Shown piece after piece: positions 55,485 through 63,276 of a stretch of 64,000 nt of DNA (within the stretch, counting starts at the first letter, position 1; each line of letters starts with the position of its first letter). The DNA lies in the NCBI GenBank assembly GCA_027923505.1, contig BROI01000024.1:310001-374000 (forward strand), given 5' to 3'. The position numbers were made by a program, and so were the translations under genes. The notes beneath the pieces were generated by a model that was not told the DNA's origin, did no database searches, and saw only the letters and a list, made by a program, of their open reading frames with translations. The DNA is from Mayamaea pseudoterrestris. Taxonomy: Eukaryota; Bacillariophyta; Bacillariophyceae; Sellaphorales; Sellaphoraceae.

Positions 55485-56849
55485 CTATATATCGCCATGA
55501 ACGCGCACACGATACACGCAGGTGTAAGCGTCGTTTCCGTAATTATCCAAAATTTCAAACTTGACACCCGCAAAAGTCCCCGCCAATGCATCCGTAGGAT
55601 TCGGCGCCGCGCACGTACTCGCTTCCACCGCGCACGAGCCATCCTCTTGGTTGACTAAGAAAGTTTGCACACCACCCGCAGTGACATTATAGTTGAAGGA
55701 TGCAATGAGCGATGGCTTTGCTGGATCGAATCCGAGTCCATCGCATCCACGTTCACATGCTGGCAGCCCATACACTTTAATTTTCCGTGGAGCGCTTCCA
55801 TACGTCACCTTGTTTTCGTCCGCCGCCTGTGCGAGCAACTGTAATGGTGCGTGTTCCATGGATATGGCATTGATCCTGACGGGGTGTGCGAGTCGAATGA
55901 CGACGGACCCAAAGGTTCCAGCCATGGGCCAGCAGGATCCTGGCAGTACGCTCGGATTGAGAATGGTTTCGGGAGGAGCAACGCTCGTGCCTCGCGTCCA
56001 ACCAAGCGCATGAGCCATCGAGCTGTGTACAGAAAACGACCAGTCTTTCCAGTTGCGTGACAGCAAGTACTTCTCCCAGTCTTGCGGCATTAGTCGCTCC
56101 AAAAGAGGACTCGCCAGCGAAATACTCTTTTTGGTAGGCGCCTCATACGTTGGACTCGTGTATTGATGCACAATCGTGCCGTCGGAAGCATGATCGTACA
56201 TGCCAATGCCGTCGCGCGAAAACGTGACCAACCGTTGCAAAACGGCCGACGCTGCCTCGTCGGGACGAAGACAAGCAGCATCTTGCGCTACATGGATCGT
56301 TTCCTCCTGCTGCGCGGCAGATACAATGGTAGAGGCATTCTCCTGCGCCGCATTGGTGGCGGCCAATATTTGCGCCGTGCACCACTCCTGCAAGAGTTGT
56401 TCGCTGGCGGCAAGAATGGTTTGCGGATCAAGCATTTCCTCGACAAGCTCCTTTTGCTCATTCGTCATTTTCAAAACGACTGCTTCATTTTGCAATGCTT
56501 GAAACGTTGCCACATTGTCTCGTCGCTCCACTTCAGATGAAACAATGGAGTCGAGTTTGTGTGACAACGCTTGGAGCGCTGCAGCGTTTTGCCTGCGAAT
56601 CATGATTTCAACGTCACGCTGAGTATCTGCGATCGTATTTAAATCATTATTCATTGCGTCCATTTGATTAAATAGTTCTTGTGATTCTTGCATCGTTGAA
56701 TACATTGCATTGTAGGCATGTTCGTATTGTTGCTGCGTTTGCGAAACATCGAGAAATCCAAGGTCGACTGCTTGCAAATCGGCTGACTCATATAAAAGGC
56801 ATTGCAGCAGTAAAGTTATTGATAAAAGCCTTGATTGTAAGGACGGCAT
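55485..56849 (-). CDS. SUN-domain protein
   Basis: The ATG at 56849 (MPSLQSRLLSITLLLQCLLYES) gives 454 residues. The hydrophobic N-terminus is either a cleaved signal peptide or an anchor. Residues about 35-150 are a long coiled coil (QSQELFNQMDAMNNDL, RRDNVATFQALQNEAVV). The SUN (Sad1/UNC-84) domain occupies about 285-452: LNPSVLPGSCWPMAGTFGSV, RLAHPVRINAISMEHAP, SAPRKIKVYGLP and VKFEILDNYGNDAYTCVYRV. Canonical SUN proteins span the inner nuclear membrane and bind KASH peptides in the perinuclear space (LINC complex). Here no further TM is visible, so topology is unsure; the SUCO/Slp1 branch is the alternative. Divergent from LSM7 at 196 bp. Confidence 0.88.
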   Translation of the reverse strand: MPSLQSRLLSITLLLQCLLYESADLQAVDLGFLDVSQTQQQYEHAYNAMYSTMQESQELFNQMDAMNNDLNTIADTQRDVEIMIRRQNAAALQALSHKLDSIVSSEVERRDNVATFQALQNEAVVLKMTNEQKELVEEMLDPQTILAASEQLLQEWCTAQILAATNAAQENASTIVSAAQQEETIHVAQDAACLRPDEAASAVLQRLVTFSRDGIGMYDHASDGTIVHQYTSPTYEAPTKKSISLASPLLERLMPQDWEKYLLSRNWKDWSFSVHSSMAHALGWTRGTSVAPPETILNPSVLPGSCWPMAGTFGSVVIRLAHPVRINAISMEHAPLQLLAQAADENKVTYGSAPRKIKVYGLPACERGCDGLGFDPAKPSLIASFNYNVTAGGVQTFLVNQEDGSCAVEASTCAAPNPTDALAGTFAGVKFEILDNYGNDAYTCVYRVRVHGDI

Positions 56850-57045
56850 GGTCAATTAACGTATTTTGACGAGACAATGGTTGAGAATGAGCGGCAGTGC
56901 GCCATGGTGAAGATCGCGCCATTGGATCGAGTGGAGCGATGCAAAACCACTGCGACTTGAATGAAACGAGCGCTGCGATTCACCATGAGAAACCCGCGCC
57001 GCTGAATCTTTCAAACGTTTGCTTTCCATCAATAGCAGCAGCAAC

Positions 57046-57504
57046 ATGAGTAAACTAGCAGCACCAGCAGCAGCAAAAGCAAGCAGTACGCTTCCAAAGA
57101 AGGAGTCGATTTTGGAACTATCCAAACTGCAGGATCAACTCGTCCGCGTCAAGTGCATTGGTGGTCGCGAGCTGCTGGGAATTTTGCGCGGCTACGATGA
57201 GCTTGTCAATCTCGTATTGGACGAATGCGACGAGTTTCTGAGAGGTAAATGATGCTATTCATGGATTTAGTTAGTGTCGTGAGCAAGGAGCCTCGCTAGC
57301 TACCTTAATCACGTCTCTCTTCGCAACCTCACCCCGTATTTACTACTTCTTTTTTTTGCAGACGAATCGCACCAAGTCACCGATCAAAAGCGAAGATTAG
57401 GACTCGTCGTCATTCGAGGAACGCAAGTTTCAGTCGTGGCGCCAAATGATGGCGTGGAAGAGATTGCGAATCCGTTTGTAGCGGCAGCAGAGGATGATGA
57501 ATGA
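57046..57504 (+). CDS. LSM7: U6 snRNA-associated Sm-like protein LSm7
   Basis: Exons 57046-57244 and 57362-57504, 117-nt intron (gtaaat/ttgcag), split codon G|AC, 113 residues. After an Ala-rich N-terminus, Sm1 reads SILELSKLQDQLVRVKCIGGRELLGILRGYDELVNLVLD and Sm2 reads RRLGLVVIRGTQVSVVAP, followed by NPF, all typical of LSm7. LSm7 is in the LSm1-7 ring (cytoplasmic mRNA decay) and the LSm2-8 ring (U6 snRNP in splicing). The intron lies between the two Sm motifs. Confidence 0.95.
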
Positions 57505-57607: not shown

Positions 57608-59855
57608 TCAATGGGCAAGCAGTTTTTCGACTCGAATCGAGTAGCCTTGTCCAATGTTTAGCTCGTGCGATTCGCCAAACTCATTCTCGTGCAACAGCCT
57701 CCAGCCGTTCCTTGCCTCCGATCCGTGAGAATGCAGCTCCATGTCATTTTCCATCAATCGCCACTTGTCCATGATCCACTCCGGAATTGTGTCATTCGAT
57801 TTAATAGTCGTCGTCGACAAGCTTCGCCGGTTACCAAAGGGTGAACTCGTTTCCGGAGGAAGCGTGGCAGACCCAGGCACTGTTCCATATAGCTGCGCGA
57901 GAAACTCAAAGTTGGTGACATCGGGCTGCATATTGACGCTTGGATTGTTGGTGTAGTCCATGCAATTGCCTGTAATTTCATGTACGAGAGCAATCCATAG
58001 TTAGTCCAAACTCAAATTGTCGTTACATCTCAACAAATCTATGGCAAGAGATGACGTACCAAGATCAGCATTGTAAAAGTTTTCGTCAGAATGTGGCAAA
58101 CCAAATCCTGCAAAGTGTCAATCAAATACGGCAATGGTGAGACAAGGCGACCGTGCGCGGCGCCAAACAATGACACTTTAAAACCATGCAACAACACTCA
58201 CCATGGCCAACTTCGTGACACATTGTATATGTCTTTTGGTCGTCATCCGTTCCTTTCAGATAGTACTCATTCATACGCGCCGCGCTGGCAAAAATGTATC
58301 CATCCATCAACAACACCTTGTTAATGCCCTTCCATCTCGTGTCACCATAGTCGCCGTTGCACACTTTGAGTTTGTAGTTGAGCGGCGTGCACGAAAAGTC
58401 ATAGTCCGTCGCCGATGTCGACAGCGTCAAGGCATCCGGCGTGCCCTGATCCCACTGATCCACCGCGTGATAGAAAAAGTCGTACCAACTCTCCTCCGTC
58501 GCGCGCACCACTTCGAGCGCCAATCCACTGCCGTCGGATCGCCATCGGTTCGCCTGGTTGGGATTCTGCGCGGTAAAGGGATCCTCCTTCTTAAAGTCTT
58601 CGGGTGACGGAAAAAACTTGTTGCCACCCTTGTTGCCAAGGAAATACCACAATATACCAGCTGCCACTGCCGAAAGCTGTCGTGCGAGAAGATAAGCATG
58701 AGAAAATATAATGTGCGGCACACAACTAAACTATCACGCAACACATTACGTTCAGTCCACACACACATTACATTCACTCCAAATAATACGCACCAGAAAC
58801 GTTGGCACAATGAGACTCAGTACGCGCTTGCACGAGCACGTGCGAGGCGGTTCCGCTGATGCATGTCGCTGCTGCTGCTGACGCTGATTAACGCGCTGCT
58901 GCTCCGCCTTGGCCAACTCGCGCGCCAAGTGCTCATCCAGCAGCTCCTGCTCCAATTGGCGCGCTAAATCATAGTCCGTCTTGTTTTGTTCCGTCGCTGA
59001 CGTTTCCGAGTTGCTTCGACTCGTCAGCGGCGTGGACGAACGTTTCGATTGTTGCTTCAAACGGCGGGCAACATCCTCCTCATCCATGGCGCGCTGCAGC
59101 TCGCGGGCGAGTGCAACGTCGGCGTTCAAATCAATGGGTTTGCTACTATTGCTGCGACTATTCGACGGTTCGTTCGTATTTGCAACTCTGGCGCTGCGAA
59201 AGAGTGATTGCTCGAGGCGTTTCGAGTATTCTTCGTCCGTTTGCACGTTGCTACTAGGCGGCTTGTTTGTCGCATGCGATTGCTCATTTCCACGCCGCGC
59301 AGCGTTCGACGGCGACCTTCGCAACGCTCGCTCCTCCTCGCGAAAGGTTTTCTCCAAGCGTCGGGCAAACTCCTCGTCCGTTTCAGCCGGCGTTTGCATG
59401 AGTGGTTTGTGGTTGCTAATTCGTTGCTGCTGCTGCTGCGGCATGGGTTCAGCATTTGCTGCTGCTAAAGTTAGTGGTGGCGGTCGCTCGCGCAGACTTT
59501 TTACCTTGGTGGACCTTGCAATCGTTGCCGTGGGTATTGACGCGGCAGCTTGGGTCGTCGTCGCCGGCATGTTTTGGCGCACGCTGCTACTGGTCCTTCG
59601 CGCCGACGTTCCGTGCACCATCGTATTGCTGCTGCTATTGTGGCGCGACACTGCTCGTCGCGTCGGCTGCTCGGAAACGGGCATGCCTGGAACAAGTATA
59701 TTGTTATCGCTACTACTTCGTCGTGGTCTCGCATTAGAATGACTCGGTGCGCGCTGCGCATGTCGCTGCGAGCTATACTCTCGGGAAAACTCCTCCTGCA
59801 ATGCACGAGCCAGCGCTTCGTCATCGAGCTGCTGGTCCAAGTCTTCGACGCGCAT
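57608..59855 (-). CDS. Membrane-anchored metzincin metalloprotease with ubiquitin-interaction-like repeats
   Basis: Exons 59855-58794, 58676-58202, 58107-58060 (16-codon micro-exon) and 57969-57608 join in frame to 648 residues. The N-terminal 350 residues carry six short motifs of the form Dx(L/F/Y)ARxLQxE: DEALARALQEEF, DEEFARRLEKTF, DEEYSKRLEQSL, DVALARELQRAM, DYDLARQLEQEL and DEHLARELAKAE, similar to UIM/MIU helices. A TM segment is rebuilt across intron 1 (VLSLIVPTFL then LSAVAAGILWYFL). The C-terminal protease (about 390-580) has WYDFFYHAVDQWDQGTPDAL, the zinc site HEVGHGFGLPH (HExxHxxGxxH, completed by the micro-exon) and a Met-turn CMDYTNNP. Predicted type II: motifs cytosolic, protease lumenal or outside. 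Confidence 0.85.
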
Positions 59856-60224: not shown

Positions 60225-61253
60225 ATGTTCCAGCGAGAAGGCCTCACTCTCCTTCCAACGCAGCAGCCGCTGAATGCTGCTGCGGCGACGACGACGACGA
60301 CGACGACGACTGTCACTCCAACGCCGCCAAAAGCCTCCTTCTCGGAAACGGCCCTCCAGTGGATCCAACGCACCAAGCGAAGACGATTCATTTCCGGCGA
60401 AATCAATGATCCAGATGCCGCCGCCTGGGCCTTTTTTAGTAGGAAAGAGACGGGGATTTCCTTTGTCAATGCGGCGTTGCATGCGAAACAACAAGGAGCA
60501 GAATCTGTTTTAACAGCTAATGAAGGCACCTTCTCAAATAATATGCATGCGACTGCAGCATCCAACGCATTCATCTTTGACCAACTGCCCGTGATTGAGA
60601 TTCGAGGCAGTTGCGCCGCGACGTGGACCTTGCTGACGCTGGCGGCTCGCTTTGTCGTGGACACGAGGCCCTCGCGGTTTATATCAGCAGCAGCAGCAGC
60701 GGCGGCTATTAGCGCGAACAAACATGAGAAACTTCCCCAAGTCATATTCATGGACTCGACCTACGAATATTCGATTGCGCAACTAACAAATGTTGTGAGA
60801 TCGACGCTGCTAAAGCAGCAGACACATCAAAGCGTGGAGGAGGAGCAGTTGGCGCACGATTTACGCGAGTGTTTGTCGCGCATTCACCTTGCATCCTTGA
60901 CGGAATCGTACGAAGCCGTGGCGCTCCTGGAACTGTTTCGAACAGCGCTTGCGCCGAGTCAGTTCAATCATCCAACGCTGGTACTATGGGACGGTTTTTT
61001 GGATACCATTAACAACCAGCCGAGCCGGATGGATGTGGTGCGGCAAACGTCGCGGCTGCTGCGTGACTGTTCCGTAGTCTTTGCGTCAGCCTCGCGGCTC
61101 AGTCGCAGCCAACATGACTGGGACAAGTATGTGACGCATCGGATGAAACTGGATCGCAATCCGTCCGAGGAGGGACACGAGTATTTGGCGAGTGTGCATG
61201 ATGGTAGTATCAAGATTCCGTTTTCAGTGTCCTTGGCAGGGATACTTTCATAA
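60225..61253 (+). CDS. XRCC2-like RAD51 paralogue with degenerate Walker A
   Basis: Single exon, 342 residues. After a poly-Thr tract and SETALQWIQRTKRRR, the RecA-like core shows LPVIEIRGSCAATWTLLTLAARFVV in the Walker A position, then VIFMDSTYEYSIAQL, LSRIHLASLTESYEAVALLE, a Walker B-like TLVLWDGFLDTINNQP, and RLLRDCSVVFASASRL. The order fits XRCC2, which acts in homologous recombination with RAD51 and other paralogues. The usual GxxGxGKT is replaced by GSCAATWT, with no lysine, so ATP binding is doubtful. XRCC2 is assigned by layout; another RecA-fold relative is possible. Ends tail-to-tail with HSP60. Confidence 0.6.
   Translation: MFQREGLTLLPTQQPLNAAAATTTTTTTTVTPTPPKASFSETALQWIQRTKRRRFISGEINDPDAAAWAFFSRKETGISFVNAALHAKQQGAESVLTANEGTFSNNMHATAASNAFIFDQLPVIEIRGSCAATWTLLTLAARFVVDTRPSRFISAAAAAAAISANKHEKLPQVIFMDSTYEYSIAQLTNVVRSTLLKQQTHQSVEEEQLAHDLRECLSRIHLASLTESYEAVALLELFRTALAPSQFNHPTLVLWDGFLDTINNQPSRMDVVRQTSRLLRDCSVVFASASRLSRSQHDWDKYVTHRMKLDRNPSEEGHEYLASVHDGSIKIPFSVSLAGILS
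60283..60309. repeat. CGA/ACG trinucleotide tract, about 9 units
   Basis: A short run of ACG on the plus strand encodes poly-threonine near the N-terminus of the XRCC2-like protein. It lies outside the RecA core. Confidence 0.85.
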
Positions 61254-61386: not shown

Positions 61387-63276
61387 TTACATCATGCCGC
61401 CCATTCCACCCATACCTCCCATGCCTGGTGGCATTCCACCGCCGCCTCCTTCCACCTTCTTGTCGACAATCATTGACTCTGACGTAGTGAGAAGTCCGGC
61501 AACTGATGCAGCATCCAGCAGACCAGTTCGTGGAACCTTTGTTGGATCAATAATACCAGACTTGATCATGTCGACGTACTCGCCCTTTTGTGCGTCAAAT
61601 CCCCAGTTGACATCGACACCATCCTTGATGAGCTCACCAACAATGACAGCTCCTTCCTCGCCAGCATTCATGGCAATAGTGGAAAGTGGTGCTCTCAGTG
61701 CGCGTTGGATAATTTGAACGCCAATTCGTTGATCCATGTTAATGGCACTCTCCGCAATGGCGTCAAGCTTGGTGGAGCAGTACAGCAAGGCCTTGCCACC
61801 TCCCGGCACGATGCCTTCCTCAACGGCCGCACGGGTAGCGTTCAAGGCATCAACGACGCGGTCCTTCTTCTCCTGCACCTCAATTTCAGACGCGCCACCA
61901 ACCTTGATGACGGCAACTCCGCCCGACAACTTAGCGAGGCGTTCCTGCAACTTTTCACGCTCATAGTCGGACTTGGTCGTTTCGATCGAGTTTCGGATCA
62001 ACTCGCATCGCTCCTCCATGCCAGCCTTGTCACCGAGACCATCTTGGATAATGGTATCATTCTTGGAAATGGAAGCCTTCTTGGATCGACCCAAGTGTTC
62101 CGGCCGGACTTCCTCCAGCTTGAGGCCAATGTCTTCCGAAATGACAGTTCCGCCAGTCAAAAGGGCAATATCCTGCATGGTCGCCTTGCGGTTGTCTCCA
62201 AAGCCAGGCGCCTTGACGGCGCAAACCTTGATTCCGGCGCGAAGCTTGTTCACGACAAGAGTTGCAAGCGCCTCACTCTCAACATCCTCGGCAATAATCA
62301 GCAAGGATGACTGCGACTTGATGACGGACTCGAGCAAAGGGACTAGTTGCTGCAGGTTGCTAACCTTCTTTTCAACCAACAAAATCAAAGGATTCTCAAG
62401 CTCGCAAGTTTGCGTCTTGGCATCCGTGATAAAGTAGGGGCTAATGTAACCACGGTCAAACTTCATACCCTCGACAACGTTAAGCTCATTTTCAATCGTC
62501 TTGCCGTCTTCAACCGTAATGACGCCTTCCTTGCCAACCTTTTCCATGGCATCGGCAATCAAGTTTCCAATCTCCGAGTCCGAGTTTGCCGAAATGGTTC
62601 CAACCTGCGACACTTCCTCCTTTGACGAAATGGGTCGACTAATTTCACCAAGAGTCTTGACGACACTATCCACTGCCAGCTGAATACCCCGACGCAAGTC
62701 TTGCGGATTCAGTCCAGCCGCCACCGCCTTGCATCCCTCCGAGTAAATGGCCCGCGCCAAGACAGTCGCCGTCGTGGTGCCATCTCCCGCTAAATCGTTC
62801 GTTTTGGAAGCAACACTCTTGATGAGTTGGGCGCCCATGTCCTCAAAGGGATCCTCAAAGTCAATCGACTTGGCCACAGTCACGCCGTCCTTGGTAATCT
62901 TGGGAGGTCCGTAGGGTTGCTGGATAATGGCGTTGCGGCCCTTGGGTCCAAGAGTTACCTGGAATAGTGGAGCAAATGATAACGTTACGTGAGAGACTCA
63001 TTCGTTGTTCTTTCGCGGCGACTGCATGTTCGATTGTTCTGCGCAAAAGACTGCCAATCGCCCTAATACAGTCATCTTCATTAGTTCAACCATATTACTA
63101 TACAAACATTTTCTTGTACATACCTGCACGGCATCCGCCAGCGTGTTGACTCCGGCCAGCATGGCGTTGCGTCCGTCGACGCCAAACTTGATTTCCTTGG
63201 CGAATCCGCGGGAAACGACGCGCGTGCTGCGGGCAGCCACGCGGGCTCCCGTCTTGTGTAGTGCAGAAAGCATCAT
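61387..63276 (-). CDS. HSP60: Mitochondrial chaperonin HSP60 (Cpn60)
   Basis: Exon 1 is 63276-63124 and exon 2 is 62958-61387; the 165-nt intron (gtatgt/ttccag) is in phase 0, giving 574 residues. The presequence [32 protein letters not shown] is Arg-rich and ends at RGFAKE, a typical mitochondrial cleavage region. Group I chaperonin marks are [24 protein letters not shown], the allosteric and hinge regions, and the C-terminal Gly-Met tail ([17 protein letters not shown]). It folds imported proteins with Hsp10. The intron falls right after NTLADAVQ. Divergent from the FCP gene, 333 bp apart. Confidence 0.97.

Follow-up and report, generated by a model that had tools for sequence, protein, structure and literature searches.

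Introduction

Ubiquitin-guided membrane proteolysis is already known as an idea from RHBDL4, which works via a UIM (PMC10920636). In the accounts cited here, the cytosolic UIM of this protease helps capture ubiquitylated membrane substrates, and the cuts fall in the transmembrane (TM) or luminal parts of these substrates (PMC10920636, PMC5559722). A second precedent is the plant ubiquitin-activated metallopeptidase DA1: when its UIMs are mutated, DA1 is described as poorly ubiquitylated and an E3 ligase stays uncleaved (PMC5322733). The inverted UIM, or MIU, gave the MINDY family its name (PMC4942677), and the MIU of MINDY is described as tandem (PMC8550791). Together, RHBDL4 and DA1 make plausible the mechanism that we propose below for a gene in a 64,000-nucleotide stretch of DNA (the window).

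The predicted product of this gene would resemble RHBDL4 in combining a membrane protease with a predicted cytosolic ubiquitin-binding motif, a topology which in the window protein rests on charge and cysteines. RHBDL4, however, has several TM helices and a UIM and cuts as a serine intramembrane protease, whereas the window protein would be a zinc metzincin that spans the membrane once and carries seven MIU-type motifs. DA1 is not known to have a TM segment, and it is built of LIM and DA1-like peptidase domains with UIMs rather than MIUs, whereas the window protein carries MIU-type motifs and shows neither a LIM nor a DA1-like domain at Pfam E-values up to 10; a separate DA1-like gene, L050, is present in the genome. 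The likeness to DA1 lies in the placement of N-terminal ubiquitin-binding helices, predicted ones in our case, on a zinc metallopeptidase (PMC5322733). With MINDY-1/2 the array shares the LA dipeptide, the acidic flank, the second Leu and the tandem copies, but MINDY-1/2 carry a tandem MIU on a cysteine DUB and the window protein has seven motifs on a membrane metzincin. Finally, the M10 matrixins and M12B reprolysins share with it the HExxHxxGxxH site, the Met-turn and weak profile matches around the active site, although the scores of the window protein fall short of all cut-offs in Pfam and NCBIfam.

No metzincin that carries MIUs or UIMs in an array was named among the matches listed from the open-licence PubMed Central literature, and none with an MIU array is known to us. 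A previous sequence-only reading of this DNA had called the combination new. The idea behind it has its precedents in RHBDL4 and DA1.

Gene model and motif array

Rebuilt from the sequence, the gene lies on the minus strand, 59855-57608, and its four exons encode 648 amino acids plus a stop. The introns, of 117, 94 and 90 nt, are all GT-AG. Some 63 nt upstream of the ATG chosen for the gene is a TATA-like TTATATAA. This GT-AG model bears out the sequence-only reading, which had proposed four exons and one protein with the motifs, a TM segment and a metzincin site. The features run as follows, all on the minus strand:

58794..59855, minus: exon 1, residues 1-354, disordered tail with the MIU-like array and the first half of the TM segment (gene model, predicted helices)
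59796..59822, minus: MIU-like motif 1, DEALARALQ (pattern match), in predicted helix 3-32
59352..59378, minus: MIU-like motif 2, DEEFARRLE (pattern match), in predicted helix 160-180
59211..59237, minus: MIU-like motif 3, DEEYSKRLE, the weakest copy, with Ser in place of the key Ala, in predicted helix 207-225
59094..59120, minus: MIU-like motif 4, DVALARELQ (pattern match), in predicted helix 243-272
59055..59081, minus: MIU-like motif 5, EEDVARRLK, 13 residues past motif 4 in the same predicted helix
58950..58976, minus: MIU-like motif 6, DYDLARQLE (pattern match), in predicted helix 287-333
58911..58937, minus: MIU-like motif 7, DEHLARELA, 13 residues past motif 6 in the same predicted helix
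58638..58823, minus: span of the TM anchor, about residues 345-367, VLSLIVPTFL + LSAVAAGILWYFL, intron 1 included (hydropathy)
58677..58793, minus: intron 1, 117 nt, GTGCGT...CAG, interrupting the TM segment (gene model)
58202..58676, minus: exon 2, completing the TM segment and encoding the N-terminal part of the metzincin domain, with the active-site helix at its end (gene model)
58203..58217, minus: HEVGH, the first two zinc ligands and the catalytic Glu (alignment)
58060..58107, minus: exon 3, FGLPH with the third zinc ligand (gene model, alignment)
57608..57969, minus: exon 4, which encodes the Met-turn (C-M-D-Y-T) and a conserved C-terminal region and includes the stop (gene model, alignment)

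The tail (344 residues) contains seven [DE]xx[LFYVIM][AS][RK]xL motifs, starting at residues 12, 160, 207, 246, 259, 294 and 307; the sequence-only reading had counted six, one too few. Shuffled tails held 0.018 motifs on average, and seven were reached in none of 20,000 shuffles. At the DNA level, a stricter pattern matched four times in the window, each time inside the metzincin gene, while 100 shuffles gave a mean of 0.05 matches and none had four. AlphaFold2, run on exon 1 as one sequence with no alignment (mean pLDDT 60.9, pTM 0.24), predicted the five helices given above, which cover all seven motifs, two of the helices being double. The 10-residue pLDDT means of the motif blocks were 66-97, with the minimum at motif 3, and 164 of the 354 residues, mostly in linkers, were below 50.

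Metzincin domain and paralogues

By its motifs, the window protein is a metzincin and would be catalytically active. Its zinc site reads HEVGHGFGLPH, followed by the Met-turn CMDYT. A tblastn-type search identified three paralogues in the genome: two in tandem on contig C11 (C11A and C11B; 329 and 322 aa) and one on C5 (504 aa). Their cores are 49-51% identical to that of the window protein, and a hydrophobic segment precedes the catalytic domain in all of them. The HExxHxxGxxH site is conserved in all four proteins, which have HExGHxFGLPHxDE in common; the Met-turn is CMDY in three of them, including the window protein, and CLDY in C11A. Thus the full metzincin site named in the sequence-only reading is present here and kept in the three paralogues, one of which has Leu at the Met-turn. 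The phase-1 intron inside HExGH-G occupies the same position in all three paralogues, which supports the catalytic part of the gene model.

The motif array is absent from all three paralogues. They are therefore ready-made controls, and the role of the array is directly testable. As a separate observation, the C11 tandem pair (L017, C11:277-280 kb) has glycine/cysteine-containing N-termini, MGGQRNSC and MGGSKGC, directly before the anchor.

Profile matches of the protease were weak. The best Pfam match of the window protein was Reprolysin_3, with 18.4 of the 22.4 bits needed; its core, scanned separately, fell short as well, and the best E-value among the four family members was 1.1e-5, for Reprolysin_5. 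The best PDB matches spanned about 27-34 residues around the zinc site, and a model of exon 2 alone (pLDDT 35.9) was unusable for the fold. Outside the genome, no relative was confirmed in IMG/VR, the GTDB genomes or phages, and the active-site DNA pattern had no match in IMG/VR; these collections are prokaryotic and viral, so the absence says little about other algae.

Membrane anchor and predicted topology

Only one stretch of the protein, residues 342-368, has a 19-residue mean hydropathy above 1.6 (best value 2.34, at residues 345-363). The charge flanking the TM core is +4 in the 20 residues before it and +1 after it. The corresponding values of C11B (+1, -3) and C5 (+2, -1) agree in direction, and those of C11A (+1, +2) run slightly the other way; the anchor of C5 is weak, with a best 19-residue mean of 1.15. 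Behind the anchor, each of the four proteins has exactly four cysteines, all of them aligned, which fits two disulfides outside the cytosol. There are also N-glycosylation sequons after the TM segment: one in the window protein (residue 587), two in C11A, one in C11B and four in C5. The four invariant cysteines and the charge favour an N-in orientation, with the array probably in the cytosol and the protease on the extracytoplasmic side. On the other side of the balance are the single sequon of the window protein, the charges of C11A and the weak anchor of C5.

Proposed function

The explanation that we put first, and to which we give about an even chance, is that of a type II single-pass metzincin whose cytosolic MIU array binds ubiquitin and holds the protease beside ubiquitylated membrane proteins. 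The N-terminal 344 residues would lie in the cytosol as a flexible tail bearing seven helical motifs of the MIU type that bind ubiquitin, and the catalytic domain would face the lumen of the ER, the Golgi or the endosome, or the cell surface. The array would bind ubiquitin through avidity, and once bound it would keep the protease near ubiquitylated membrane proteins, whose luminal parts the ectodomain might then cut, or it might cut other luminal substrates. If this is true, a cytosolic ubiquitin mark could direct proteolysis by a zinc protease outside the cytosol, and the RHBDL4 idea would then also hold for an enzyme that crosses the membrane once and has a large array for avidity. More tentatively, the protein may be a transmembrane coincidence detector, in which the seven-fold MIU array would read ubiquitin on the cytosolic tails of substrates and couple this to ectodomain cutting by the metzincin. 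Such a detector would have originated by the addition of an MIU array to one of the four paralogous membrane metzincins.

The array could also serve the protease itself. According to this rival explanation, which we consider possible at clearly less than even chances, it would be a sorting device that takes the enzyme to the endosome or vacuole, where luminal substrates need no ubiquitin. The route, on which we are equally hesitant, would be coupled mono-ubiquitylation of the tail or the engagement of ubiquitylated sorting complexes. The architecture and the sequence evidence are the same as for substrate recruitment, and the tail offers 12 lysines; coupled mono-ubiquitylation is known for UIM proteins and is discussed, in the source cited, for DA1 and epsin (PMC5322733). 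On the other hand, seven copies seem, in our judgement, to be beyond the needs of a simple sorting signal, and three paralogues manage without the array. Sequence cannot decide between substrate recruitment and self-sorting.

Comparison of the motifs with MIUs

Both recruitment and sorting take the motifs to bind ubiquitin, and their resemblance to the MIU suggests that they may do so. The key Ala is found in six of the seven motifs, and all seven have L, F, Y or V just before it and a second Leu behind it. Against the likeness stand the Ser that motif 3 has for this Ala and the residue after the second Leu, which is Gln in only two motifs, Glu in three, and Lys and Ala in one each. Substitution of Ala179 or Ala450 of RNF168 is described to lower ubiquitin binding by its MIUs (PMC2699339), and the MINDY-1 MIU mutant L415A/A416G is described to capture less ubiquitylated protein (PMC4942677). 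For ZUFSP, the source calls L240 and Q241 highly conserved, and reports that the double mutant cut chains like the wild type (PMC5824887).

A Pfam scan of the tail and of five fragments covering all motifs returned no ubiquitin-binding family. The Pfam UIM model (PF02809) matched eight places in the genome, two of them in the MINDY-3/4 and MINDY-1 frames, and none in the metzincin gene, and UIM identity was rejected for the motifs. The sequence-only reading had spoken of an array of ubiquitin-interaction-like helices: the array holds, a Pfam UIM does not, and the likeness is to the inverted motif.

We then compared the motifs with 177,635 PDB sequences. A profile of the seven motifs gave 12 weak matches, headed by the UBZ finger of polymerase eta (3wup, E 0.9), which the literature cited describes as structurally characterised (PMC5824887), with the MINDY-1 MIU peptide (5mn9, E 7.8) at rank 12. 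After the profile had been extended by six motifs that occur in other proteins of the genome, MINDY-1 (TDLELAQQLQQEE) came first of 11 matches, still weakly (E 0.3); part of this rise is circular, since the genome's own MINDY-1 homologue supplied two of the added motifs. With an 18-residue profile, E-values of 0.3-7.8 are not significant when taken alone, and since designed coiled coils appear in both lists at similar E-values, these searches are suggestive only. Motif 1 alone had no PDB match, and motifs 6-7 had two chance-like ones. The MIU tail of the genome's MINDY-1 homologue retrieved only designed repeat proteins and missed the human MINDY-1 peptide, so single-sequence searches are insensitive here.

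The genome itself offered another comparison. In the 30.6 Mb genome, the strict DNA pattern D..[LF]A[RS].[LF][QE] occurs 37 times, four times here and 33 times elsewhere, against 10 occurrences of the reversed pattern. We examined 29 of the 33 outside matches, leaving out four on C32, C34, C37 and C39. Fourteen of the 29 fall in 13 frames of at least 150 aa, and 15 in shorter frames or none; the Pfam scan took in 10 of the 13 long frames. The tight form [DE]xxLARxLQ, picked after the matches were known, occurs in seven long frames outside the metzincin gene, four of which are MINDY_DUB, MINDY-3/4, CUE or DA1-like:

L042: MINDY_DUB (tight form, Pfam)
L034: MINDY-3/4 (tight form, Pfam)
L027: CUE, with a score exactly at the cut-off (tight form, Pfam)
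L024/L050, L050:1058-3577 (C4), minus: single-frame protein of 840 aa with LIM and DA1-like (E 6e-27) domains and three motifs near the N-terminus
L033 (C10): BRO1 (tight form, Pfam)
L043 (C18): near copy of L033 (tight form, sequence likeness)
L037/L051, C15:365 kb: large low-complexity protein with DEELARRLQEELEIE and no Pfam match (tight form)

The tight form is also found in two short frames, L046 (67 aa) and L077 (54 aa). Four of the other six long frames were scanned with Pfam and had no ubiquitin-system domain above the cut-off; L036 had STI1- and ubiquilin-like matches, both under the cut-off. L029 and L041 were judged by eye to be a kinase and an acetyl-CoA synthetase. The motifs of the DA1-like protein L024/L050 sit where plant DA1 carries UIMs. 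The near-identical L033 and L043 end in DSDLARELQERLNCG plus two residues, which places an MIU-like motif at the extreme C-terminus. Elsewhere in the genome, one protein carries DUF6824 (Pfam), a domain frequent among stramenopiles, diatoms included; like the photosynthetic gene content, this would fit the ochrophyte origin implied in the sequence-only reading.

A profile built on seven motifs of the MINDY, CUE and DA1-like proteins scored six stretches of the tail (3.9-11.3 bits each, 27.7 bits in total) and missed motif 3. The best of 1000 shuffles reached 8.8 bits (687 were reported), and the tail of the C5 paralogue 3.1. We take the recurrence in ubiquitin-system proteins as the best evidence that the motifs may be of the MIU kind, though the search pattern was itself derived from the metzincin gene.

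Alternatively, the tail may consist of charged amphipathic helices for oligomerisation or for another partner, the MIU likeness being convergence in a short, easily reached pattern. The designed coiled coils in both PDB lists are in keeping with this, as is a looser genome pattern, whose 27 matches (control, 12) lie mostly in short frames or in long frames unrelated by eye. What makes this explanation improbable in our view is that the motif also occurs in the genome's two MINDY genes and in CUE and DA1-like proteins, and that the profile from these proteins, found as they were with the gene-derived pattern, separates the tail from all 1000 shuffles.

Array and protease as one predicted gene

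For the window protein as proposed, array and protease must come from one gene, a join which is predicted from the splice consensus. We enumerated the GT-AG pairs between 59000 and 58500 with introns of 40-400 nt. Thirty-eight joins keep the frame, and in every one of them six or more motifs stay in the reading frame of the protease. These joins use 16 donor hexamers, of which only GTGCGT and GTGTGT fit GTNNGT, the donor form in eight of the nine introns modelled across the four-member metzincin family; the chosen intron 1 has GTGCGT. The chosen join of exons 1 and 2 yields one good TM segment. In its own frame, exon 2 has no ATG until the middle of the catalytic domain. Given this and the 38 joins, a break into two genes near 58.7 kb, which the sequence-only reading had feared, is unlikely.

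Two transcripts from the locus could nevertheless be imagined, one for an MIU protein that ends in a retained intron 1 (tail ...VLSLIVPTFLVRIIWSECNVCVD) and one for a separate protease. The exon 1 frame indeed continues into intron 1 and stops shortly after, so that retention would give a hydrophobic C-terminus. We hold this to be very unlikely: a separate protease would have no in-frame ATG in exon 2 before the middle of the catalytic domain, the two halves combine into one good TM segment, the intron 1 donor follows the family's GTNNGT, and in the paralogues TM segment and protease share one frame. The stretch in question is window 58752-58823 (minus), where retention of intron 1 would produce an array protein with the hydrophobic end described.

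A version raised in the sequence-only reading, in which the protease would act from a plastid-associated compartment in plastid (SELMA-like) quality control, was rejected as highly improbable. The genome is photosynthetic (53 Chloroa_b-bind matches) and ochrophytes have SELMA, but the protein starts with an MIU-like helix instead of the signal peptide that forms the first part of a bipartite plastid-targeting sequence. No 19-residue window beginning before residue 342 exceeds a hydropathy of 1.6, so that nothing points to a signal peptide at the N-terminus.

Neighbouring genes

Rfam and tRNA scans of the 64,000-nucleotide window found nothing. The metzincin gene is neighboured by a SUN-domain (Sad1_UNC) protein at window 55485-56855 (minus), by an LSM-domain protein with its first exon at 57046-57249 (plus) and by a cpn60 chaperonin at 61387-62997 (minus). 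Divergent to the metzincin gene, at 60225-61250 (plus), lies an open frame without a Pfam match.
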